From assembly GCF_013282805.1 (NCBI RefSeq), contig NZ_CP054038.1, forward strand, positions 62,001 through 126,000: DNA of 64,000 bases, in the 5' to 3' direction. Below the pieces are notes generated by a model, which ran no database searches, had not been told where the DNA came from, and saw only the letters and a list, made by a program, of their open reading frames with translations. Both the position numbers and the translations under genes were made by a program. Origin of the DNA: Microbacterium hominis. GTDB lineage: Bacteria; Actinomycetota; Actinomycetes; Actinomycetales; Microbacteriaceae. Shown here in pieces: positions 33,696 through 46,468 of the stretch (the stretch's first letter is position 1; every line of letters begins with the position of its first letter).

Positions 33696-33713
33696 TCAGC
33701 CGGGGTGCCCGGG

Positions 33714-35384
33714 TCAGGACGACACGGGAGTGTCTCGCTTCGCCGGCACCGTGATGGATGCCACTTCTTCGAGACGCGGATGGAGTTCGTCGCCGTGCTC
33801 GACCACGCCGGTGTGCCACGTCATCGTGAGGCCCTCGGGTTCCTCCTGAAGCAGTGCGACGTTGTTGTCGAACCACGGACCCTTCACCGTCCTCCAGCGG
33901 AAGGGCGGGTCGGGCACCTTGGCGGAATGCGCGGCGGCGGCGCCCAGCGGCGTCGCCGCGCCGTACGACATCACCACGGAGAACCAGCGCAGGAAGCGGG
34001 GCAGGGGGTTGCGCATGGGGGAGCACACCGCCTGCACGATGCGGCTGCCGCTGTCGCGCTCGACCTCGGCCAGGTACGAGTAGTGCACGTCGCCGGACAG
34101 GAATGTCACCGTCTGCGGGGCCGGCCCGCGCTCGCCGTCTGCGAGCTCCGTCGCGATCGCGGCAACCGCTTGGAAGCTGTTCTGGAACGCGGCCCAATGT
34201 TCGAGGTCGACGGCCTGCCGCAGCCGTTCCCCCACCCACGCGGCCGGCCGCCCCCACGCCCCCTGTGCGATCGCCTCATCCCAGGCCTCGACGTGGTGCA
34301 AACCCAGCGGCAGCAGGAACGGGAGCGAGGTGGCGACCAGGACGTGGCGGAATCCGCCCTGCATCCGGTCATCGAACCACTGCAGCTCGTGATCGTTCAG
34401 CAACCCCCGCGACGACGGGGTGAGATCTCTCGCGACGCGTGAATCCACGACGATCAGACGCGTCTCATCGAGGTCTCGGGAGAAGCTCCAGCGATAGCTC
34501 TCGGGATCCCTGTCGCAGCGGCTGGCGAACTCGTCGAGCGAGGCGCTGAGATCGGGGGAGGCGGCGGCGTCCTGCCGACTGACACGCTGCCACATCTCGT
34601 CGGCGGCGCGTTCGCGGGGCGAGAGGTTGCCGAGATGCTGGTACACCCAGTACGAGGCCAGGCCGGCGACCACGCGTTCGTGCCACCAGGAGGTGGCCTC
34701 CATCTTCTTCTTCCAATCGAGCGACGCGTTCCAGTCGTCGCGGATGTCATGGTCATCGAAGATCATGGCGCTCGGCACCGTGGAGAGCAGCCACCGATTC
34801 GCGTCGTCGGACCACGCCAGCTGATACAGGTGGGCGTACTCTTCGAAGTCCTTGAGCTCCTTGCCCGGTTCCTCATGGATGTCGCGGCGGCTGCGGATGA
34901 ACTCCTGCATCTCCTTCGTGGTCACGTCGGCGTACACCTGGTCGCCGAGGAAGAGCAGCAGATCCGGGCGGGTCTCACGGTGTTCGGCGAGCGCGAGGGC
35001 GAAGGCGCGCAACGAGTCGACGCCATGTGTTCGGTTGCCCGACCGGTCGTGGGCGACGCTGGTGCGACACGACCCATAGGCGATTCGCTGCCGTTGCCCG
35101 GGCGTGCGTGTGGCGATCACCGAGGCGGGAAACTGGGAGCCCTGCTCGGGCCACACCGGGACTCCGTCGACCTCGACCTCGTACGGGGAGACGCTGCCCG
35201 GCTCAAGCTGGTCGACCTCGACGAGGGCGTAATGGTGCCCGTGCACAGTGAAGGTGCGGGCCTGCCAGGATCGTCCCTCGACTCGGACGTTCACCAGGCA
35301 GTCGGCTCGTGTCTCCAACCAGATGGCGGCCGACGTCTCATCGACGTAGCGCAGCATCGGCCCCAACAGCAGCGGGGATCCCAT
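33714..35384 (-). CDS. PhoD-like alkaline phosphatase family protein
   Basis: 556 residues with the metallophosphoesterase residues of the PhoD family: IAYGSCRTS, LLLFLGDQVYAD, MIFDDHDIRDDWN, and TFLSGDVHYSYLAEV, which supply metal ligands. No signal peptide or Tat motif is seen, unlike classical secreted PhoD, so this is a cytosolic relative whose substrate is unknown. It converges with terC, 18 bp apart. Confidence 0.85.
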   Translation of the reverse strand: MGSPLLLGPMLRYVDETSAAIWLETRADCLVNVRVEGRSWQARTFTVHGHHYALVEVDQLEPGSVSPYEVEVDGVPVWPEQGSQFPASVIATRTPGQRQRIAYGSCRTSVAHDRSGNRTHGVDSLRAFALALAEHRETRPDLLLFLGDQVYADVTTKEMQEFIRSRRDIHEEPGKELKDFEEYAHLYQLAWSDDANRWLLSTVPSAMIFDDHDIRDDWNASLDWKKKMEATSWWHERVVAGLASYWVYQHLGNLSPRERAADEMWQRVSRQDAAASPDLSASLDEFASRCDRDPESYRWSFSRDLDETRLIVVDSRVARDLTPSSRGLLNDHELQWFDDRMQGGFRHVLVATSLPFLLPLGLHHVEAWDEAIAQGAWGRPAAWVGERLRQAVDLEHWAAFQNSFQAVAAIATELADGERGPAPQTVTFLSGDVHYSYLAEVERDSGSRIVQAVCSPMRNPLPRFLRWFSVVMSYGAATPLGAAAAHSAKVPDPPFRWRTVKGPWFDNNVALLQEEPEGLTMTWHTGVVEHGDELHPRLEEVASITVPAKRDTPVSS

Positions 35385-35724
35385 GAACCCGTTGTACCGC
35401 GAACGGCACCACAGCGGCCAGAGGTGCTCGCGGTGAAGTGGGGTTCACGCCAGGCGGGTCACCGATCTCACGTGATCGGGCATGGAGCGGCGCACATTCG
35501 CGAGGGGATGAGCGCGCGTCGTCGCCGGGGTGATCAGTGGAGCCCGTCGCCGTCGGCATCCGGCCGGCGGAGTGTCGGCTCGGCCGCCCGCTGGGCATGC
35601 CCTGAGCGTGCATGTCAGCGCGCCGGTCATTCGCACTCGCGTCGTCTCGCACGCGCCGGGGATTGATTCGGGGTACTGGAGTCGGGGAATGTGCGCGAAG
35701 CGCGACCGGATCTTCGGCAACCTG
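35385..35724. other. Intergenic region, 340 bp, no gene recognised
   Basis: It lies between the PhoD-like gene start and the toxin stop. Open frames here show no codon bias or known motif. It marks the junction between ordinary chromosome and the accessory region. Confidence 0.5.
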
Positions 35725-35985
35725 TCAGTAGTGGTCTCGCGCCTGGAGGATCACGATGTGGTCATCGGTCACGTAATAGACGAGTCGGTTCTTTTCGTCG
35801 ATGCGTCGAGACCATGCCCCGGACAGGACGTGGCGGAGCGGTTCGGGTTTGCCGATGCCTTCGAACGGATCACGAACAACGTCCGCGATCAGCATGTTGA
35901 TTCGCTTGAGGGTCTTGCGATCCTGCGTCTGCCAGTAGACGTAGTCCTCCCACCCGTGCGGGTCGAAGGCGAGCGCGCGGGTCAC
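35725..35985 (-). CDS. yoeB: Txe/YoeB-family toxin (mRNA interferase)
   Basis: 86 residues with the YoeB pattern: FDPHGWEDYVYWQTQDRKTLKRIN at the start, GKPEPLRHVLSGAWSRRID in the middle and NRLVYYVTDDHIVILQARDHY at the end (catalytic Glu/Arg/His-type surface). YoeB cleaves mRNA at the ribosomal A site when free of its antitoxin. The start overlaps the antitoxin stop by 4 nt. Confidence 0.92.
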   Translation of the reverse strand: MTRALAFDPHGWEDYVYWQTQDRKTLKRINMLIADVVRDPFEGIGKPEPLRHVLSGAWSRRIDEKNRLVYYVTDDHIVILQARDHY

Positions 35986-36233
35986 GCGTCGAGGAGGTCG
36001 TGCTGCTCGAACTCTCCGCGACGTGCGCGCTCGACGGCCTCCAGCAGCCGCTCCGCGTTCGCGGGGTTGCGCAGGAGGTAGGCCGTCTCGGTCAGTGCGT
36101 CGAAGTCGTCCTTGGACATGATCACGGCGTTGCCGCGGCGGGAGACGACTTCAACGGTCGTGTGGTCCTCATTGACCTGCTGAATGAGTCCGAACAGGCT
36201 CTTTCGCGCTTCGGTCGCGGTGATAGCGGACAT
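35982..36233 (-). CDS. yefM: YefM/Phd-family antitoxin
   Basis: 83 residues: an N-terminal DNA-binding fold (MSAITATEARKSLFGLIQQVNEDHTTVEVVSRRG in part, then AVIMSKDDFDALTETAYLLRNPANAERLLEAVERA) and a short C-terminal toxin-neutralising tail. ATG at 36233; a longer frame upstream lies in the operator. The antitoxin-first order with a 4-nt overlap is standard. It should repress its own promoter at the dyad at 36253-36276. Confidence 0.92.
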   Translation of the reverse strand: MSAITATEARKSLFGLIQQVNEDHTTVEVVSRRGNAVIMSKDDFDALTETAYLLRNPANAERLLEAVERARRGEFEQHDLLDA

Positions 36234-36252
36234 GGATGCTCCCCCTCGGCTG

Positions 36253-36276
36253 AGTAGTACGTAAAACGGTACCACT
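36253..36276. promoter_or_regulatory. Probable autoregulatory operator of yefM-yoeB
   Basis: The dyad AGTAGTAC...GTACCACT with a GTAC core in each arm, 20 bp upstream of the antitoxin start. YefM operators contain TGTACA-like dyads. Confidence 0.55.
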
Positions 36277-36381
36277 CTGGCGTACGGTAGCCGACCGACC
36301 ATCGGGCGGGCAGACTCTCGCCGCGATGAATGTCGGAAGTTACTGATAGTTCTGAGCGCGACGTCATGACGAGGGGGAACC

Positions 36382-36591
36382 ATGATCGACATCGATCCGA
36401 TCCGGGACGCGATGTGGCAGGCGCGCTGGGATGGCTTGGTCGTGCTCGGGCAAGCGATTTGGGTAGCTGCGCTCGCACACTGGTGGTTCGCACCACTTAT
36501 GCTTCTCGCCCTCATGACAACTGGGCGAAAGCGGCTCCTCCGCTTGGCACACGGGGTCGGAACCGCATTCCTGCGAGCGAACACAGACTGA
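36382..36591 (+). CDS. Small membrane protein
   Basis: 69 residues: a short polar N-terminus, a hydrophobic stretch of about 30 residues (LVVLGQAIWVAALAHWWFAPLMLLALM) that may form a hairpin, and a basic tail. A strong ribosome-binding site (GAGGGGG) precedes the ATG. It is not similar to anything I recognise. About 245 bp without a clear gene follow before the ABC-3C operon. Confidence 0.55.
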   Translation: MIDIDPIRDAMWQARWDGLVVLGQAIWVAALAHWWFAPLMLLALMTTGRKRLLRLAHGVGTAFLRANTD

Positions 36592-36807
36592 TCACCTGCC
36601 GACCGGCTTGCGGTCAGGGGGAGATCATGAGACCTACCGGCTCGGCGTCAGACACACGAGCCTGGCGTGGCGTCCTGCGCCCGTCAGCGCGTAAGCGCCG
36701 AGTCACGCCCACGCCGCCTTCGCGGCGGTGGCGCTCTGCGTCGGCGAGCCGCGACGGCTGGCGCGGACGATGGACCCGCTCGTGTCCCAGCCGTGTGGCA
36801 GCGGGGG

Positions 36808-36835
36808 TACGATGCATGCCCCAATAGCATTGGGG
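36808..36835 (+). promoter_or_regulatory. -10 box and dyad over the ribosome-binding site of the ABC-3C operon
   Basis: TACGAT (36808-36813) is a likely -10. From 36819 to 36835 runs the perfect dyad CCCCAAT-AGC-ATTGGGG, which ends one base before the ATG at 36837 and contains the GGGGA that would pair with the ribosome. It could be a repressor operator or an RNA hairpin that hides the start. Confidence 0.5.
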
Positions 36836-36836
36836 A

Positions 36837-37790
36837 ATGTCATATCCGTTCGAGGACCTCCACGAGGACCAGTTCGAACGCCTCGTCGTCGAGTGCGCAC
36901 GCTACCTCTTCGGCGCCGGAGTTCAGGAGTTCGCGAAGGGTCCGGACGGCGGGCGGGATGCGCGCTTTCACGGCGTCGCTGAGCGGTTCCCAAGCACTGC
37001 CGGCCCATGGGGTGGCATCACCGTGATACAGGCGAAGCACACGAACGCACTCAATGCTCACTTTGCCGAGGGCGCATTCAGCGGCGCCAAGAAGAGTTCC
37101 GTGCTGTCGGAAGAGATCTCGAGGATCAAGGCGCTCGTGGACGCGAACGAGTGCGACAACTACTTGTTGGTGTCCAATCGCAGGCTTGGAGGAAGGACCG
37201 CGCCGCTGATCACGCGACGAATCTCCAGCGACGCGGGCCTCGCAATGGATCGGGTGAGCCTGATGGGCGTCGAGCGGTTGTCGTCCCTGCTGCGCGAAAG
37301 AGCCGACCTGATCAAGCTCGCAGGAATCACCTTCCCCGGTGGATCACTCTTGGTTTCGAGCTACGAGATTGCCGAGATCATCCTGGCGGTGGGCGCCGGC
37401 CTCGCGGACGACGAGGTCGCCGAGGAGCTCGCTGTGACGTCGCGCGTCTCCTACGCTGAAAAGAACCGTTCGAACCGGGTGGGCGTCGACTTTGCCAAGG
37501 AGCTGAGCGATCGGTACTTGTCCTACACCCCCGCGATTGACGCCTTCCTCGCGGATCCGATGAACGCGGACGTTAAGGATCTGTATGACGCCGCGGTGGA
37601 GGACTTCCAGCTGAAGATCTTGGCTGCCTACGACGAGCACAAGTCCTTCGAGCGCATCTTTAATCTCCTCGTCGATGCGCTTGCGAGACGCGATGGTGTG
37701 CTTGCGAGCAACAAGAAGAGTCTTCGCGCCCTGCTCTTCTATATGTACTGGCATTGCGACATTGGACGCGTGGCCCATGCTGGTCCCTAG
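36837..37790 (+). CDS. ABC-3C system protein: restriction-endonuclease-like domain plus C-terminal component
   Basis: 317 residues. Residues about 1-75 are a Mrr-like nuclease fold: FERLVVECARYLF, then GPDGGRDARF (Asp in the active site, about 35-44) and VIQAKHT (QxK, residues 65-67). The rest is helical and ends in RALLFYMYWHCDIGRVA, a pattern I associate with C-terminal components of ABC-three-component (ABC-3C) systems. In such systems the ABC ATPase is thought to license the nuclease effector on invading nucleic acid. It overlaps the next gene by 14 nt. The G+C is visibly lower than in the flanking core. Confidence 0.75.
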   Translation: MSYPFEDLHEDQFERLVVECARYLFGAGVQEFAKGPDGGRDARFHGVAERFPSTAGPWGGITVIQAKHTNALNAHFAEGAFSGAKKSSVLSEEISRIKALVDANECDNYLLVSNRRLGGRTAPLITRRISSDAGLAMDRVSLMGVERLSSLLRERADLIKLAGITFPGGSLLVSSYEIAEIILAVGAGLADDEVAEELAVTSRVSYAEKNRSNRVGVDFAKELSDRYLSYTPAIDAFLADPMNADVKDLYDAAVEDFQLKILAAYDEHKSFERIFNLLVDALARRDGVLASNKKSLRALLFYMYWHCDIGRVAHAGP

Positions 37791-38016
37791 CAAGCACTCC
37801 CACCCCGACCACACAGTCCTCGCGGCGGCCGGAGCCGCCCTGAAGCTTCTGCGTCGCACGCGCGTGGCAACGTACGACGAGGTGCATAACGCCGTGCAGG
37901 CAAGCACGAGTCGAGCGGACTACCTCCTGGTGCCGGCAGTTGACCTTCTGTACCTCGTTGGCTTGATTCGGTATCTACCGAAGGCTGACGCTTTCGAACT
38001 TACGGAAAGACAATGA
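37777..38016 (+). CDS. ABC-3C middle component (MC6-like)
   Basis: 79-residue winged-helix-like protein: PSKHSHPDHTVLAAAGAALKLLRRTR, then YDEVHNAV and VPAVDLLYLVGLIRYL. The P-KH--PD--LL--GA pattern matches the MC6 type of middle component that bridges effector and ATPase. ATG at 37777 inside the end of the upstream gene; its own stop overlaps the ATPase ATG by 4 nt. The three genes are therefore tightly coupled. Confidence 0.7.
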   Translation: MLVPSKHSHPDHTVLAAAGAALKLLRRTRVATYDEVHNAVQASTSRADYLLVPAVDLLYLVGLIRYLPKADAFELTERQ

Positions 38017-39794
38017 AGATCACTCGTCTCTACTCGAACAAGCCGGAGATCTTCCAGCCGATCGAGTTCAATCACGGGCTCTCTGCTGTGGTGGCCGAGA
38101 TCCACGCGCCTGATGTGCGTGATATTGACACGCACAATCTCGGGAAGACGAAGCTCGGCGAACTCATCGACTTCTGCCTTCTGAAGCAGAAGTCGAAGGA
38201 CCAATTCCTGTTCGCAGTGCCCGCGTTCGACTCGTTCGTATTCTTCATCGAACTCGAGCTCGCTGAAGGCGGGTTCGTGACTGTTGCGCGGCCCGTCAAC
38301 CCGGGCTCTCGCATTTCCATCGTTCGTAGCGAATCGTCGATCACCGACGCTCAGCTTGTACCTGCTGAGGATTGGGACCAGCATGGGCTTGCCTTCGAGC
38401 GTGCGCGCAAGATGCTCGACGGGATTCTGGGTTGGGGCGCACTATCGCCGTGGGAGTTCCGGAAGCTGGTCGGGTACCTGATCCGAACCCAGCAGGACTA
38501 CCAGGACGTGTTTCAGCTGGGCAAGTTCTCGGGCAAGCACCAGGATTGGAAGCCATTCGTGGCTCACCTACTTGGACTAGGGTCGGCCGACGTCCGGGCG
38601 CTCTACGATCAACGCGAGGTAGTCGAGCAACTCAAGGGCAAGCTGGAGACCTTGGTGGCCGAGTGGGGCGGACACGACGACTCAGCATCTCTAGACGGGC
38701 TCATTGCGCTCAAGAAGGAGGCCCTGGTCTCGCGCTCAGCCGCCCTCGAGACCTTCGACTTCCACGAGGAAGATGCCAGGGTTTCCGAATCCCTCGTGGA
38801 CGAGATCGAGCTGAAGATCCTGCGTGCCAATGAGGAGCGTTACGAGCTTCAGCAACTGCTGGCGAGGATCAGCTCGTCACTCGCAGAACGGACGATAACT
38901 GTCAAGCCAAAGCAGGTCGAGGCCCTGTTCGCAGAGGCGGGCGTGGTTCTCGGCGAACAACTGGTGCGCTCATTCGACGAGCTGGTCGCATTCAACCGCG
39001 CCATTACAGCTGAGCGGCGGGAGGCGCTTCAGGATCAAGCAGCGCGCGCTGCCGAGAGGTTTGACGCGCTGGAGGCCGAGCTCTCCGACCTAAACTCACG
39101 CCGCTCCCGGGCGCTGGCGTTCCTGCATGAGTCAGCCTCGCTCGAAAAGTACAAGGAGCTGAGTTCGGAGGTCTCGAAGCTATCGTCTGAACTGGCTGTT
39201 CTTGAGGCGCGGCGCGAGTCGGCGGCGCGGCTTATCAACGTGCGCCGGGAGCATCGGGAAGCGACCGAGGAGCTTGGTCGCCTGGAGAGCGAGGTCGAGG
39301 CCAACCTCTTGGAAGTGAGCGGCGACTCCTCGAGCCGATTCGCGAGGTTGAGATCCTACTTCAATGAGGTTGTCTCTCACGTGACGGGCCAGAGCGCAAT
39401 TCTCGCGGCGAGGATGAATGCGTCCGGCGGTCTCGACTTCTCCGCAGAGTTTGTCGGGGAGTCGGGTATCGCGACGAGTGGAGACCAGGGAACGACCTAC
39501 AAGAAGCTGCTGTGCATCGCGTTCGATCTGGCGATGCTGCGTTCATTCATCGATGTCCCCTTCGCGCGATTCGTCTACCACGACGGCGCACTCGAGCAGC
39601 TGGAGCCGCGAAAGCGCGAGAAGCTCCTCGAGGTGTTCCGGCAGTACGCCCAGTATGGAGTCCAGATCGTGTTCTCCGCTCTTGATAGCGACTTCCCTGG
39701 GCCGGTCAGCGATTCGCTCACCCCCAACGACATCGTCATAGCGCTGCATGACGATGGCGACGATGGCCGATTGTTCAAGATGCCCGCATGGTGA
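38013..39794 (+). CDS. ABC-3C system ATPase, DUF2326/SMC-like
   Basis: 593 residues. The N-terminal nucleotide-binding half has the atypical Walker A THNLGKTKLGELIDFCLL (about 41-58), which lacks the usual first glycine as in DUF2326 proteins. A long coiled-coil region follows (about 215-440, Glu/Arg/Leu-rich), then the C-terminal half with the Walker B/D-loop-like FARFVYHDGALEQLEPRKRE. The layout is that of Rad50/SMC-type ATPases that sense DNA ends or unusual DNA. It is the last gene of the ABC-3C operon. Confidence 0.82.
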   Translation: MKITRLYSNKPEIFQPIEFNHGLSAVVAEIHAPDVRDIDTHNLGKTKLGELIDFCLLKQKSKDQFLFAVPAFDSFVFFIELELAEGGFVTVARPVNPGSRISIVRSESSITDAQLVPAEDWDQHGLAFERARKMLDGILGWGALSPWEFRKLVGYLIRTQQDYQDVFQLGKFSGKHQDWKPFVAHLLGLGSADVRALYDQREVVEQLKGKLETLVAEWGGHDDSASLDGLIALKKEALVSRSAALETFDFHEEDARVSESLVDEIELKILRANEERYELQQLLARISSSLAERTITVKPKQVEALFAEAGVVLGEQLVRSFDELVAFNRAITAERREALQDQAARAAERFDALEAELSDLNSRRSRALAFLHESASLEKYKELSSEVSKLSSELAVLEARRESAARLINVRREHREATEELGRLESEVEANLLEVSGDSSSRFARLRSYFNEVVSHVTGQSAILAARMNASGGLDFSAEFVGESGIATSGDQGTTYKKLLCIAFDLAMLRSFIDVPFARFVYHDGALEQLEPRKREKLLEVFRQYAQYGVQIVFSALDSDFPGPVSDSLTPNDIVIALHDDGDDGRLFKMPAW

Positions 39795-39871
39795 GCCGAT
39801 ACTTGCCCATCATTGAGCGGCGCTCGATCGTGCACGCGCGGAGTTGTTCTCAAGTATCCACTTGGGTCGGG

Positions 39872-40084
39872 TTATGGATGCCCGTCCAACAACGTCCGCA
39901 CGAGCCCCACGAGCTCGCTTTCCCCCGTCGCCATAGCCGCGCCCGTCAGAATCGTGCCGAGCATGACAAGAATGACGAGGAGTCGCGCCGTGCTGCCCCA
40001 GCCCGATTGGACCGCGTCGGCGATCGTTGACCACATTCCGACCTTGATCTGCGTATCCGGTCGCGGTGCTTTGCTTGTTCCCAC
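39872..40084 (-). CDS. Small single-pass membrane protein
   Basis: 70 residues with one hydrophobic segment (STARLLVILVMLGTILTGAAMA) between polar ends. The GTG start at 40084 has a near-perfect ribosome-binding site (GAAGGAGGTG, 8 nt spacing), so it is expressed on its own. It faces the ABC-3C operon. Unknown function; the size and topology would suit a toxin, holin or membrane anchor, but nothing specific is seen. Confidence 0.6.
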   Translation of the reverse strand: MGTSKAPRPDTQIKVGMWSTIADAVQSGWGSTARLLVILVMLGTILTGAAMATGESELVGLVRTLLDGHP

Positions 40085-40271
40085 CTGCGGTCACCTCCTT
40101 CGCCCCTGGGTGGATTCTCGATGACCAAGTAACGCACACGCCGAGCGCTTCCGGGGATATGATCGATTTGCGCCTTAACCGGCCAGGACAATCAAGAAAG
40201 TCTGAGACAGTAAGAGAGATTCTGGCTGGTTGAAACGTCCAGCCTGAAGCGTCACAGATTGGACCAAGATT

Positions 40272-41276
40272 GTGCCTATCACGGTCGAATTCTCGCGTGC
40301 TCCCACCGCGAAGGAGTCCACGAAGCTCAACGCGCGGCTGCATCGACTGAGCCGGCCAGAACAGCTTCCGCGTATCGAGCGGGTATACGAGTCGATGGGT
40401 GCGGAGCTGCCCGCAGAGGGGCTCACGATTCGTCCCGGCTTCTCCTTCCGCGATGAGGGCATCGATCAGGATGCGTCAGATCGAAGCGCTCCGCCCCGCG
40501 AGCTGCGCCCGCCTGCTACTCGGCTCATGAGCAGTCGCGGCGCGGCACTCCGATTCGAGTTGACGCTGCTCGCGCTTGTTCAGACCAGACGCAAGCCGGG
40601 TGCCAGGGCGAAGCTCGTCGAGTTCGGATTCGAGGTGCGAGGCAGTTCCCGTTCTCGTGGATGGTCAGACCTGCTCGCCTCTGACGCGTCCGACAGCAAT
40701 CGCGACGGAGTGCTCATGACCGCGCGCGATAAGCGCGCTCGCAGCGTTCGGAGCGCGCTCCTCGCGCTCTCGGATGCGGGATTGGTTGACTTCGCGGACG
40801 GGCCAGGTAGGCGCGACCGCTACGAGCGGTTCGTCCTCCTCGATGAGCGAGGGGTCGAAGCACTCGGAGAAGCCGACGAGTACCGAGTCCCCACCAAGGC
40901 CGAGCCGACCTTTGCCCTGCCCAGTGGATTCGTCACGAACGGATGGCTCCAGGTGCTCGAAGACTCGGAGATCGCGATCCTCTTGATGATGGCGTGCGCA
41001 CGCGATGCATGGTGGGAGAACGGCGCCCTTGTGGTGCCTCCGGACGTTCGGTTGCGGAACTACGGGATTCATCGCGATGTCTACTCGTCGGCCCGCAAGA
41101 CGCTCGACTGGTTTGGGCTGCTTGAGGTTCGCGAGGTCGGGAGGCACGCGGATGGGCGTGCTGAGAACGGCGAGCAACACACTCACCGACTTCGCCTCCT
41201 ATCGGGCGGTTTCGATGCACCGGCCGTCACGACCGTGATCGAGGCGCTGAACAGTCAGTTGTCGAGGCGCCGATGA
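40272..41276 (+). CDS. Unknown protein with winged-helix-like segments
   Basis: 334 residues, GTG start. The N-terminal 70 residues are basic; the middle (ALRFELTLLALVQTRRKPGARAKLVEFGFEV, then RSVRSALLALSDAGLVDFADGPGRRDRYERFVLLDE in part) reads like a wHTH domain with a wing. A second helical unit (EDSEIAILLMMACARDAWW ... YGIHRDVYSSARKTLDWFGLLEV) resembles replication-initiator or regulator wHTH folds. I do not recognise the family. It lies 127 nt upstream of the kinase gene on the same strand. Confidence 0.55.
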   Translation: MPITVEFSRAPTAKESTKLNARLHRLSRPEQLPRIERVYESMGAELPAEGLTIRPGFSFRDEGIDQDASDRSAPPRELRPPATRLMSSRGAALRFELTLLALVQTRRKPGARAKLVEFGFEVRGSSRSRGWSDLLASDASDSNRDGVLMTARDKRARSVRSALLALSDAGLVDFADGPGRRDRYERFVLLDERGVEALGEADEYRVPTKAEPTFALPSGFVTNGWLQVLEDSEIAILLMMACARDAWWENGALVVPPDVRLRNYGIHRDVYSSARKTLDWFGLLEVREVGRHADGRAENGEQHTHRLRLLSGGFDAPAVTTVIEALNSQLSRRR

Positions 41277-41403
41277 TCGGACTTCAGCTCAATTGCTCGA
41301 ATCGCACGATGTTCGTCACCCGGTTACGTCTGGGCAGCGGGCACTCACCGTACGAGGATCAATGATCGCCGAACGAGCCGGGTGCGCCGATATCGTTTCC
41401 GGT

Positions 41404-42861
41404 ATGGGGATGACGCTCGATCAGGGAACCTGGGACGTCGTGGCGCCGTTCGACGCAGATGCCGGAGCTTTCGCCAAGTTGTACCTCGTGACCTCGGCGA
41501 ATGGCGACGAGGCAGTTGCGAAATGCATGCCCGTCAAGCCAGGAGCTCAGCGCGAACTCCTCTTCAGCGAGTCGATCCAGGCCGCCGGGTACGCGAATGT
41601 CATGCCCGTCGTCGACTTCGGTGAGCACGAGGGCTACTACGTGGTCGTCATGCCGCGAGCCGAGATGTCTCTCAAACAGTATGTCGAGCGGCACCCGGCC
41701 GGTGTACCGCTAGAAAATTCGTTGGCTGTTCTCGACGACGTTGCGGCGGCGCTCGCGCAAATCAACGACAAGATCGTTCACCGCGATATCAAACCAGCGA
41801 ACGTCCTCCTGCACGAGGGCAGCTGGAAACTGGCTGACTTCGGGGTCTCTCGCTATGTGGAGGCCGCGACGGCGACGGAGACCCGCCGAGCAAGTTTCAC
41901 GCATGCGTACGCGGCGCCCGAGCAGTGGAGGCATGAGACCACTTCAGGCCGCACGGATGTCTACTCGTTCGGGGTGATGGCGTACGAGCTCATCGAGCGG
42001 CGCCGCCCCTTTCAGGGCCCACAGTTCCGCGAGGAGCATCTTCATGAGATTCCACCGGAGATGGATTCCGGAACCCCGAAGTTGCGCCAGTTGATTCGCG
42101 AATGCCTGCTAAAGGATCCTGCGACCAGGCCGGCACCGGATAGCCTCCAGAACCGACTCCGCGCCGCCGAGATCGACATCGCGAAGCATGGCACCGCCAA
42201 GCTCGCAGTGCTCAGAGCGCGACGCACCGCGCAGATTTCCGCAGAGCAAGCGCGTGATGCTGCCGAGCGAGACGCGAAGGAGCGACTGGAAAGCATCGTC
42301 GAGGACGCGGCGGCTTTACTCAATCCCATTGCGCGGGCCATTAGGGCTGAGCTTGTCGGAGCTGGGCTGGGGATCATGTTCGACACGGTGCTCGGAAACG
42401 CAGCACCAATCTTTCGTGCGAAGTACGAACGCGCATTGCTGGAGTTCGATCGCGTCGACCCGGTCGAATCCGCACAACTTCCGTTCACGGTGCACGCCTA
42501 CGCGAGCATCACCGTCGACGCCGGAACCTCAGCAAACCAATATCGAGGCCTCAGCCACTCACTCTGGTTCTGTGACGCGCAAGAGCAGGGCCGCTTCGCA
42601 TGGTACGAACTGGCGTTCAGATCTTCCACGGGCGGCCCGGATCGGTCCCGTCTTGAGCCTTTCTCCAGGCCGCCGTGGAGTGTGGAACAGGCCTTTGCGC
42701 AAGCCGCTGGCGACATCGAGCTGGCCTGGCCGCCGACCGAACTGGCCCTAGCAGATCCGAACGAGTTTGTTCAGAGATGGATCGGCTGGTTCGCGGACGC
42801 CGCCGACGGGAACCTTGCCAGACCGTCCACACCGGCTACCGGGCCGCGCCCCTTTCGCTGA
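41404..42861 (+). CDS. Soluble Hanks-type Ser/Thr protein kinase with unknown C-terminal domain
   Basis: 485 residues. The kinase domain (about 10-260) is intact: the VAK lysine (residue 40), HRDIKPAN (126-133), DFG (145-147), APEQW (171-175) and the substrate-binding DVYSFGVMAYEL. The glycine loop is poor. A helical, charged linker (about 265-310) leads to a C-terminal domain of about 170 residues without a known match. There is no membrane helix and no PASTA repeat, unlike housekeeping PknB. The start is leaderless (TATCGT 7 nt before the ATG at 41404). Confidence 0.85.
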   Translation: MGMTLDQGTWDVVAPFDADAGAFAKLYLVTSANGDEAVAKCMPVKPGAQRELLFSESIQAAGYANVMPVVDFGEHEGYYVVVMPRAEMSLKQYVERHPAGVPLENSLAVLDDVAAALAQINDKIVHRDIKPANVLLHEGSWKLADFGVSRYVEAATATETRRASFTHAYAAPEQWRHETTSGRTDVYSFGVMAYELIERRRPFQGPQFREEHLHEIPPEMDSGTPKLRQLIRECLLKDPATRPAPDSLQNRLRAAEIDIAKHGTAKLAVLRARRTAQISAEQARDAAERDAKERLESIVEDAAALLNPIARAIRAELVGAGLGIMFDTVLGNAAPIFRAKYERALLEFDRVDPVESAQLPFTVHAYASITVDAGTSANQYRGLSHSLWFCDAQEQGRFAWYELAFRSSTGGPDRSRLEPFSRPPWSVEQAFAQAAGDIELAWPPTELALADPNEFVQRWIGWFADAADGNLARPSTPATGPRPFR

Positions 42862-43483
42862 TGGCGTCCCCGTCGGAGTAGCGAGCTCTGTATCTCGGGC
42901 TCGAGGTCTGACGTCTCCCGGCGGGGTATGTTCGCGATGGCGCGAGGGACGCCAGCCCACAGACGACGCGCGGCTGCGCGAATCTCCCCACTAACGGGCA
43001 TTGCCCGTATGGGGATCGTGACGGCGTGGTGGTGTTGGTCAGCTTCGCCTGCGCCCGCGCGGGCTCAGGGCCGCAGTCGTCGCTCGCGACCATGGCCCCG
43101 CACAGCGCCCACGCGATGAGGATCGGCTGGAGGAACAGCCTGATGAATCGGGCCCGATCAGTGCGCAGCAGCGGCGCCGAGCGTCCGGTTCGCCAATGGT
43201 GCACGTTTCCCGGGAACACTGCGACGAAGAACGCCGCCGTCAGCGCCCCGACGGTGCGCCGCTCACGCGGAAGTGCGATCAGCGCCCCGCCGAGCATGAT
43301 CTCGACAACGCCTGAGGCCACGACGATCGCGTCCTTGTCGAGGCCGGATGCACGAGTGGCCCAGTCCGGGACGGCGATCTGGAAGCCTCGCCTCGCCCAG
43401 AACAGGTGCGCAAGCCCCATGTAGAGGAGAAACCCGCCGAGAAGCATCCGAGCGCCAGTCCGCGCGATCAGTCCCACCGTCAT
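42836..43483 (-). CDS. DoxX-like membrane protein with an atypical C-terminal extension
   Basis: 215 residues. Residues about 1-125 are a four-helix DoxX-type membrane protein (RMLLGGFLLYMGLAHLFWARRGF; DAIVVASGVVEIMLGGALIAL). Relatives end after the fourth helix. Here about 90 more residues of low-quality, Arg/Pro/Ser-rich sequence follow and overlap the end of the kinase gene by 26 bp on the other strand. The tail is probably read-through after loss of the original stop codon or a small frameshift. Confidence 0.65.
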   Translation of the reverse strand: MTVGLIARTGARMLLGGFLLYMGLAHLFWARRGFQIAVPDWATRASGLDKDAIVVASGVVEIMLGGALIALPRERRTVGALTAAFFVAVFPGNVHHWRTGRSAPLLRTDRARFIRLFLQPILIAWALCGAMVASDDCGPEPARAQAKLTNTTTPSRSPYGQCPLVGRFAQPRVVCGLASLAPSRTYPAGRRQTSSPRYRARYSDGDAISERGAAR

Positions 43484-43616
43484 CGCGTCAGTCTGACAGG
43501 CTTCCTCCGCTTCGGATCGGATCGATCAGCTACACCGACAGCGCGCAGCGGCCCCAGTCGCGTGCACCGCCCGATAGCGGATCGGGAATGTCCGAGGTCG
43601 GCGGGACCATCGATAC

Positions 43617-43946
43617 ATGGGTAACCCGAACTACCACCTCACCAAACACGAGCGGGCGGAGATGATCCGTGCGCACGCTGGACTCGTCACAGCCCTCGTC
43701 GGCAATGATCCCGACGCACTCGATGGTCAACTCAAGTCAATCGTCCGTGAGCAGTCGGAGGCGTCGCAGGGAGATGTGAAGGCCTTCGCCGGAAGAATGG
43801 CAAAGCAGGTCGAAGCGGGGGCCATCGTCACGCGACACCTGCTGATGTCCCTCGCACCCCGACTCGAGATGACCGAAGCTGAAGCTCACGAACTCTTCGC
43901 GTCCATCTATGCCGACGACTCGATCACCGACCTAATGAGCGAATAG
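43617..43946 (+). CDS. Small helical protein of unknown function
   Basis: 109 residues, predicted all-helical and soluble (HERAEMIRAHAGLVTALVGNDPDALDGQLKSIVREQ). Good coding signal. It is the last gene before the IS21 element, whose insertion lies 44 bp after its stop and leaves it intact. Confidence 0.55.
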   Translation: MGNPNYHLTKHERAEMIRAHAGLVTALVGNDPDALDGQLKSIVREQSEASQGDVKAFAGRMAKQVEAGAIVTRHLLMSLAPRLEMTEAEAHELFASIYADDSITDLMSE

Positions 43947-43989
43947 CCGCATCAGCGGCGCTGCGGCAAACCGTGCTCGGCGCGGGCCA

Positions 43990-43996
43990 GTCTGGG
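43990..43996. repeat. Left target-site duplication of the IS21 element
   Basis: GTCTGGG directly before the IS start (TGAATATT). Confidence 0.85.
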
Positions 43997-44157
43997 TGAA
44001 TATTCGCTTCTCTGAGCGCCACGAGTATTGCGGTTGAGCGCCACTTGCTGGCGGGCGCGATCGCGTTGTTGAGTACCACCGGATATTCGGGTTCGGCGCC
44101 ACGTTCCTAGGCTCCTTCTGCCGTGTGATTGGCCACGCGGCAGAAGGAGTAGTTCGG

Positions 44158-45722
44158 ATGGTACGCAGGATCAAGGCGAAGCTGGTGTTGAGGCTTCGCG
44201 CGGAGGGACTCACGGGTCGGCAGATCGCGGCGCAGGGCATGTCTCGGCACTCGGTGACGGCGGTGCTCGACGCCGCCGACCGGGAGGGCATCTGCTGGGA
44301 CGACGTAGCGGAGCTCGACGAGGCGGACGTGTATGCGCGGCTGTTCCCGGGGCGTGGTGAGCACGAGAGCGTTCATGCGCAGCCGGACTGGGATCGGGTG
44401 CATCGGGAGCTCGCCCGGGTCGGGGTGACGTTGAAGCTGCTGCATGGCGAGTACGTCGATGCCTGCCGGGGCAAGGGCGAGACGGCGATGGGCTACGACC
44501 GGTTCTGCAAGACCTACCAACGTCACGTCCTCGTGATCGGCGCGGCGTCGCGGGTCGGTCACAAGGCCGGGCAGACGGTCGAGGTCGACTGGTCGGGGAA
44601 GACGATGCAGCTCACGGACTCGGTGACCGGGCAGGCGACGAGGGTCTACCTGTTCGTCGCGACGCTGCCGTTCTCCCGCTACTCGTTCGTCGAGCCGACA
44701 CTGGACATGAAGCAGGACACCTGGCTGCGCGCGAACACGGCGATGTTCGAATGGTTCGGCGGGTCCGTCCCGCGGATCGTCCCGGACAACCTGAAGGCGG
44801 GTGTGATCAAGCACCCTGCGGAGGGCGAGGTGGTGCTCAACGACGCGTATGGGAGCTCGCCGCGCACTATTCGGCGGCGGTGCTGCCGGGGCGGGTGAAG
44901 AAGCCGAAGGACAAGCCGAGCGTCGAAGGAACTGTCGGGAACGTCGCGACGGTGGTGATCGCCGCGCTCCGCAACCAGCGGTTCGCGACGCTCCCGGAGC
45001 TGCGCGCCGCGGTCTACGAGCGTGTCGCCGCTTACAACGCGGAGCCGTTCCAGAAGCGCGCCGGCTCCCGGCTTTCCGTGTTCGAGGGTGAGGAGAAGCC
45101 GCTGCTGCGGCCGCTGCCGGCCGTCGCGTTCGAGATCTCGCAGTGGCTCTACGGTCGCAAGGTTCAGAAGAACGGGCATGTGGTGTTCGAGCGGAACTTC
45201 TACTCCGTCCCTTACGAGAACATCGGCCGGTCCGTCGACCTGCGCATCACCGACACGACGATCGAGGTGTTCGCCGGGGATCAGCGGCTGACCAGCCATC
45301 TCCTCGCCCCGGCCGGGGTGGTCAACGAGTACCGGACGCATGACTCGGATCTGCCCGATGGGCCCCGCTACCAGCAGATGGACCCGGAACGGGCACGGGA
45401 GTGGGCCGCTCGGATCGGGGAGAACACCACGGTCATCCTGAACCGGATCTTCGAGTCCGTCCCCGTCGACGAGCAAGGGTTGGGAGCCGCGCTGGCAGTG
45501 CTCAGGTTGACTCGCCGCTACTCCGCCACGAGGGTCGAAGCAGCCGCCGGCATCGCACTCGAGTCGAGGGTGAGGTCGCCGCGGTATGCGCATCTGCGGC
45601 CGATCCTGGACTCGAACCAGGACCAGACCGGCAGGCGCCAGCCGAGGTTCGAACCGAGTCCTTGGGAGGAACCTGCCGGGTATGTCCGCGGCGCCGACTA
45701 CTACGCAGGACAGACCCGATGA
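44158..45722 (+). pseudogene. istA: IS21 istA transposase, frameshifted
   Basis: DDE-type transposase of about 520 residues: an N-terminal HTH (LRAEGLTGRQIAAQGMSRHSV), the first catalytic Asp in VEVDWSGKTMQL, the second in VPDNLKAGV, and a beta-barrel-type C-terminus. The frame breaks after VVLNDAY at 44850: one base (C of an expected CGG) is missing, and the rest continues in the next frame (ELAAHYSAAVLPGRVKKPKDKPSVEGTV in part). The start ATG at 44158 follows AAGGAG. IS21 elements do not normally need a frameshift in istA, so the element is probably not autonomous as sequenced. Confidence 0.88.
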
Positions 45723-46468
45723 GCCGGCTCGATGCGGAGACGAAGCGGAAGCTGCGGGAGATGGGTGTCCCCGCCCTCGTCGACGCGTTCGACATCCAAG
45801 ACGACGCACTGGCGATGGGGTTGGTGTTCGAGGAGCGGATCAAGCTCGCCGTCGACGACGCCCACGCCGCGTTCACCCACTCCAAAGTCGAAGGCCTCAT
45901 CCGGCGGGCGGGTTTGCGTTACCCGAACGCGGACCTCCGCAGGGTCGACATGCTCGAACAGCGCGGCCTGGACCGCGGGGTGATCGCGCAGCTCGGGACC
46001 TGCCAGTTCATCACCCGGCACATGAACGTCGTGTTCCAAGGGTTCACCGGCTCCGGGAAGTCCTACCTCGGGTCCGCGTTGGCGAAGCAGGCCTGTCAGC
46101 ACCGCTACCGGGCGCACTACATCCGCATGCCCGACCTCGAAGAGACCTGGGCGGCGGCGAAAGACCGCCCGGCGGGGCGGGAGAAGTGGTTGCGGAAGTA
46201 CTCCACGTTCACGCTCCTCGTGATCGATGAGTGGCTGCTCGACCCGCCCACCGACGACGTCCGGTCCATGCTGCTCGAGCTCCTCGAACGCCGATACGAC
46301 GCCACCTCGACCGTGTTCTGCACCCAGTACGCGAAGAAGGACTGGCACCAACGCCTCGGCTCAGGGGTCCACGCCGACGCGATCATGGACCGCATCGTCC
46401 ACAACACCCTCTGGATCGAGACCGGCGACGTCAACATGCGCGAGCACACGGCCGCCGCGGCCAGCTGA
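45719..46468 (+). CDS. istB: IS21 istB transposition helper ATPase
   Basis: 249-residue AAA+ ATPase that helps IstA select and join the target. Walker A is GFTGSGKSYLGSALA, Walker B is LLVIDEWLL, and the sensor region is STVFCTQY. The ATG overlaps the istA stop by 4 nt, the usual coupled arrangement. Confidence 0.95.
   Translation: MSRLDAETKRKLREMGVPALVDAFDIQDDALAMGLVFEERIKLAVDDAHAAFTHSKVEGLIRRAGLRYPNADLRRVDMLEQRGLDRGVIAQLGTCQFITRHMNVVFQGFTGSGKSYLGSALAKQACQHRYRAHYIRMPDLEETWAAAKDRPAGREKWLRKYSTFTLLVIDEWLLDPPTDDVRSMLLELLERRYDATSTVFCTQYAKKDWHQRLGSGVHADAIMDRIVHNTLWIETGDVNMREHTAAAAS

Follow-up and report, generated by a model that had tools for sequence, protein, structure and literature searches.

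A three-gene operon of Microbacterium hominis as a probable nuclease-bearing ABC-3C member of the Lamassu superfamily

A 64,000-nucleotide stretch of the Microbacterium hominis genome (contig NZ_CP054038.1, positions 62,001 to 126,000; hereafter the window) carries an operon of three overlapping genes that most probably encodes an ABC-three component (ABC-3C) abortive-defence complex of the Lamassu superfamily. The operon, at 36837-39794 on the plus strand, consists of three open reading frames (ORFs) in the order effector, middle component (MC), ATPase. Gene content, gene order, co-occurrence, folds and conserved motifs are established here as the basis for this assignment; the Lamassu mechanism would carry over by homology of fold and layout. 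The putatively LmuA-like effector (36837-37790, +; 317 aa) joins a predicted PD-(D/E)xK nuclease at residues ~1-165 to a CTD12 domain at 171-310. The putatively LmuC-like MC (37777-38016, +) comprises 79 aa beginning MLVPSKHSHPD, with its ATG at 37777 chosen within a longer frame from 37675, in agreement with relatives. The third gene (38013-39794, +; 593 aa) encodes a DUF2326 SMC/Rad50-like ATPase, the LmuB-like sensor. Effector and MC frames overlap by 14 nt and MC and ATPase frames by 4 nt (ATGA), bearing out the tight overlap described in the first-pass annotation, whose start at 36808 merely takes in extra upstream DNA.

Profile searches assign all three components above Pfam cut-offs. 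CTD12 matches the effector at E = 1.8e-33 (116.5 bits, cut-off 25), and DUF2326 (PF10088) matches the ATPase at E = 3.3e-17 (62.9 bits, cut-off 28.7). The MC passes for both MC8 (PF20295; E = 1.1e-11, 45.2 bits, cut-off 25) and MC6 (PF20293; E = 7.3e-8, 32.7 bits, cut-off 27.2), MC8 being the better fit by profile score. At E <= 0.01, CTD12 is found in 35/35 members of the effector alignment, and MC8 and MC6 in 29/29 and 28/29 members of the MC alignment. With fold models in agreement, the earlier proposal of an ABC-3C system that has all its components, the C-terminal one fused to a nuclease, is supported; its "DUF2326/MC6 type" label stands for DUF2326 and gives way to MC8 as the best MC fit. 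Every ABC-3C feature examined is present: a DUF2326 ATPase, an MC profile, a CTD profile, adjacent co-occurring genes and an N-terminal effector fusion. The LmuB-like SMC/Rad50 ATPase expected of the Lamassu superfamily is present as well. NCBI names on relatives read "ABC-three component system protein", "ABC-three component system middle component 8" and "DUF2326 domain-containing protein". NCBIfam gave no match over a curated cut-off for the three window proteins, and sequence searches of solved structures with these proteins and the three family profiles, the MC profile included, returned chance or coiled-coil matches only, with none to solved Lamassu chains.

The effector, which carries the motif YMYWHCDIG, is predicted to cut DNA, as first proposed, on the strength of its fold and conserved residues. 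Four nuclease residues, E14, D41, Q65 and K67, are invariant in 35/35 effectors, and comparison of a structure model by VIA-align assigns the PD-(D/E)xK fold to residues 1-165, closest in structure to AF1548, Avs4 and AspBHI. The fold call rests on this model: Mrr_cat scores below its Pfam cut-off in the window effector (18.1 bits against 21) and Foldseek with the effector model returned nothing at E <= 0.001, the best match being YydB at 6.1e-3. Mrr_cat reaches E <= 0.01 in 14 of the 35 alignment members. A stand-alone Mrr-type type IV restriction enzyme was considered and rejected, the sub-threshold Mrr_cat being followed by CTD12.

Scanning species genomes with the effector alignment via two conserved peptides yielded 31 loci. 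Effector and ATPase profiles were run on each, and the MC was sought with a single sequence (least significant E accepted 3.1e-4, at L024). The full gene set in conserved order is present at 29 loci, which by record title come from several phyla. The two others are L028, a 57-aa fragment with neither MC nor ATPase, and L030, whose 570-aa protein has only a nuclease stretch in common. Effector and ATPase are uninterrupted in 27 of the 29 complete loci. At L026 (73-492) the effector spans only 139 aa and appears interrupted; at L029 (5537-8825) effector and ATPase are each split over two frames. Distance matrices of the 24 loci represented in all three alignments (leaving out L001-L004, L026, L028-L030 and L032) correlate at 0.94 for effector/ATPase, 0.86 for ATPase/MC and 0.80 for effector/MC, values reached by 0/5000 permutations, which fits co-inheritance through transfer or descent.

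The ATPase is matched by the PADLOC models PDC-M68B (2.3e-54) and LmuB (6e-11). Its P-loop, DTHNLGKTKL, lacks the first glycine, and a conserved FN..I..ER block lies near the coiled-coil tip, with no CxxC hook in residues 186-445 of 40 ATPases. The Walker B aspartate is followed by glycine (D-G) in place of the catalytic glutamate in 40/40 close relatives, and by serine in 7/9 wider relatives. The ATPase looks catalytically degenerate across the whole branch. Ranked by Z score, its structure model fits YydD best (33.6), followed by LmuB (26.2, 25.1, 23.8 and 23.2) and Rad50 (22.9 and below); the lowest of the four LmuB values ties with Rad50, and a fifth Lamassu entry ranks under Rad50. Since none of the close relatives examined has the Walker B glutamate, ATP would probably serve as a binding switch that fires once and not as fuel.

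In the proposed mechanism, two DUF2326 ATPase subunits with bound ATP would make up an SMC/Rad50-like clamp, and the MC8 protein together with the effector CTD12 would keep the nuclease docked and inactive. On meeting a foreign-DNA cue, which by analogy with Lamassu and Rad50 may be DNA ends, hairpins or replication structures, the clamp would release or cluster the effector. PD-(D/E)xK domains could then assemble and cut DNA, which would stop the phage or plasmid, probably with harm to the cell itself. In Lamassu, LmuA set free becomes an active tetramer (PMC12409362), and stem-loop and DNA-end sensing are listed (PMC12904381). Two entries in the Protein Data Bank (PDB) are titled "LmuACB in nuclease sequestration state" and "LmuA nuclease tetramer bound to DNA duplex". 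A bolder proposal, tentative and in our view slightly more apt to fail than to hold, is that the branch is a Lamassu-like immune complex without any ATP hydrolysis, a single-shot ATP-gated sensor of DNA structure with irreversible nuclease release, and that YydBCD would represent this same machine in the model organism B. subtilis.

The operon is patchily distributed. The full-length effector occurs in 2/149 genus genomes, its own included, the other (G142) at 85% identity. The ATPase alignment matches 10/345 class genomes, no more than 3 candidates per genome being scored, and the full profile is matched in the own genome only. Eight further genus genomes (L035-L042) hold partial effector matches, seven within residues 2-72 and one over 3-134, all lying inside open frames of 838-1759 aa; the nuclease module seems to be reused elsewhere. 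Among 72,556 plasmid records, the effector is found in 28, of which 23 are predicted conjugative and 20 belong to Agrobacterium, and the ATPase alignment matches 37. Two of three annotated plasmid stretches examined contain the intact three-gene operon; the third (p292) begins at the record start and includes the ATPase only. A complete CTD12-MC8-DUF2326-type operon lies on the Ti plasmid pTiBo542 (L078; NC_010929.1, 5986-8994). No relative was detected among 50,697 phage records, and one viral contig (L032) holds all three genes. By eye, L001 5773-5815, some 200 bp upstream of the operon in M. halotolerans, resembles a tRNA 3' end; ARAGORN found no tRNA in L001.

These plasmid-borne relatives suit a system aimed at plasmids or replication structures and not mainly at phages. 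DdmABC, which acts on plasmids and phages (PMC10586767, PMC12409362), would be the precedent, and plasmid-plasmid competition would be a natural use for copies on conjugative plasmids. The window copy, however, sits in a 3.9-Mb single-contig genome. We consider a mainly plasmid-directed role plausible but the weaker bet; it departs from the proposed abortive-defence complex in target alone.

The operon probably has a leaderless promoter that is either constitutive or under mild regulation. A TANNNT box lies 5-7 nt before the start in 9/13 actinomycete loci against 0.12 expected, a figure that overstates the surprise because the motif was picked post hoc and several loci are close kin; L009, L010, L014 and L016 lack it. 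Such a box near the start codon suggests a leaderless mRNA, and leaderless transcription is common in actinomycetes. At the window operon, the probable -10 hexamer is TAGCAT (36825-36830, +), which precedes the start codon by 6 nt. A sigma-70 scan of 36500-40100 gave 0 promoter-like pairs against 0.8 expected, and no -35 element was identified.

The same region contains a perfect dyad, CCCCAAT-AGC-ATTGGGG (36819-36835, no strand assigned), which the first-pass annotation placed over the ribosome-binding site and read as a sign of tight repression. The dyad is real; the GGGGA beneath it abuts the ATG and is a poor ribosome-binding site because of this zero spacing. An operator would be consistent with perfect 7-bp arms spanning the -10/start region and with the dyad being the sole copy in the genome, allowing at most 1 mismatch. 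In 29 relatives the 110 nt upstream of the match start (72 nt in L026) showed no copy; for some distant loci this point is not the start codon. Unrelated inverted repeats occur upstream in two relatives, L001 (arm 6) and L024 (arm 7). Perfect inverted repeats with arms >=7 and loops of 0-8 appear in 344/4000 random 75-nt and 439/20000 random 30-nt stretches of the window, or 2-9%, and the operon lacks a regulator gene. Tight repression is unsupported because the dyad is unshared, not rare by chance and situated over a likely -10 box; we judge an operator at this site unlikely, and a conserved one is rejected.

The neighbourhood offers a further reading. Just upstream and divergent from the operon lies a YefM/YoeB toxin-antitoxin pair (35725-36239, -; Pfam YoeB 3.5e-39, Phd_YefM 3.1e-17). 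This adjacency, together with three linked, patchily distributed and partly plasmid-borne genes, would fit a toxin-antitoxin-like module in which ATPase and MC act as addiction partners of a nuclease toxin and stabilise mobile DNA. A 593-aa SMC/Rad50-like sensor with an LmuB fold goes far beyond the needs of an antitoxin, and Lamassu members built on the same layout protect cells from phages and plasmids (PMC10586767), making an addiction role quite improbable.

Downstream by 1.5 kb, a Ser/Thr kinase (41293-42858, +; PADLOC mad6 1.4e-39) may represent another defence gene, with the caveat that kinases tend to hit many models. In all, 33 families match it, with many PD-T4-6 models among the 25 listed. 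The preceding 334-aa gene (40272-41276) has no Pfam match. PhoD is found in 4/38 relatives, own genome included, and in 0/22 other genus members searched. The gene terC is found in 7/38, own included, one of them (G159) at just 25% identity over part of its length. Three of 5 other genus genomes with terC have sufficient sequence beyond it, and there, over ~12-14 kb, no window ORF of >=90 aa is matched (E 1e-15, identity >40%, more than half length), MC, YoeB and YefM being too short for this test. By this comparison, window 33700-46000 past terC is a variable region or island edge; the three relatives define no clean empty site. An SbcCD/Mre11-Rad50-type DNA-repair complex with a non-defence role is very improbable, given its patchiness (2/149 genus genomes; the full ATPase profile in 1/345 class genomes, with <=3 candidates scored per genome), its position in the variable region after terC and the better fit of YydD and the best LmuB than of Rad50.

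Krishnan et al. 2020 is reportedly the paper that classified the ABC-3C systems, and one paper (PMC12447246), by its title, deals with Lamassu-Mrr in bacterial defence. The ABC-3C systems have been put inside the Lamassu superfamily, with tested members, effectors that include Mrr and PD-(D/E)xK types, and abortive defence (PMC10586767). DdmABC is tied to the ABC-3C clade (PMC12409362), and Lamassu is among the systems that acquired a nuclease-protease pair (PMC12799240). The earlier remark that few ABC-3C systems have been tested is outdated for ABC-3C overall, where tested members and structures exist (PMC10586767, PMC12409362); for the DUF2326/MC8/CTD12 branch, no functional test appears among the literature titles listed. 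The window operon adds an intact member to this branch and links it to Lamassu through fold and co-occurrence while the Lamassu mechanism is being solved.

Several differences separate the window branch from individual relatives. In Lamassu type II/DdmABC, LmuB generally carries a Glu-to-Gln change at Walker B (PMC10586767), whereas the window branch has D-G. Many, not all, LmuB proteins have a zinc hook (PMC10586767), unlike the CxxC-free ATPases of this branch. DdmA bears a Cap4 domain (PMC12409362), in contrast to the AF1548/Avs4/AspBHI-like window nuclease. Wadjet (JetABCD) is rejected: JetC alone matches, through the coiled coil of the ATPase with E 0.0069, and none of the three proteins matches JetA, JetB or JetD. 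Of the PADLOC candidate system PDC-M68, the PDC-M68B model matches the ATPase in 40/40 relatives, and the window effector and MC have no PDC-M68 match at E up to 1. YydB-YydD (PDB 9a6c, an integrative crosslinking model) matches the window proteins at 16% identity in both pairs; YydB is longer, at 481 aa, and only its C-terminal part matches. The entry title names no organism; the pair is probably from B. subtilis, which has a yydB-yydC-yydD cluster (PMC517825). No function was found for YydB-YydD among the literature listed. This match and the missing Walker B glutamate make one-shot ATP binding a testable question. With the CTD12/MC8/DUF2326 set of ABC-3C, the window operon shares all three profiles, the effector-MC-ATPase order and an effector domain fused to the CTD, and it shows no defining difference.
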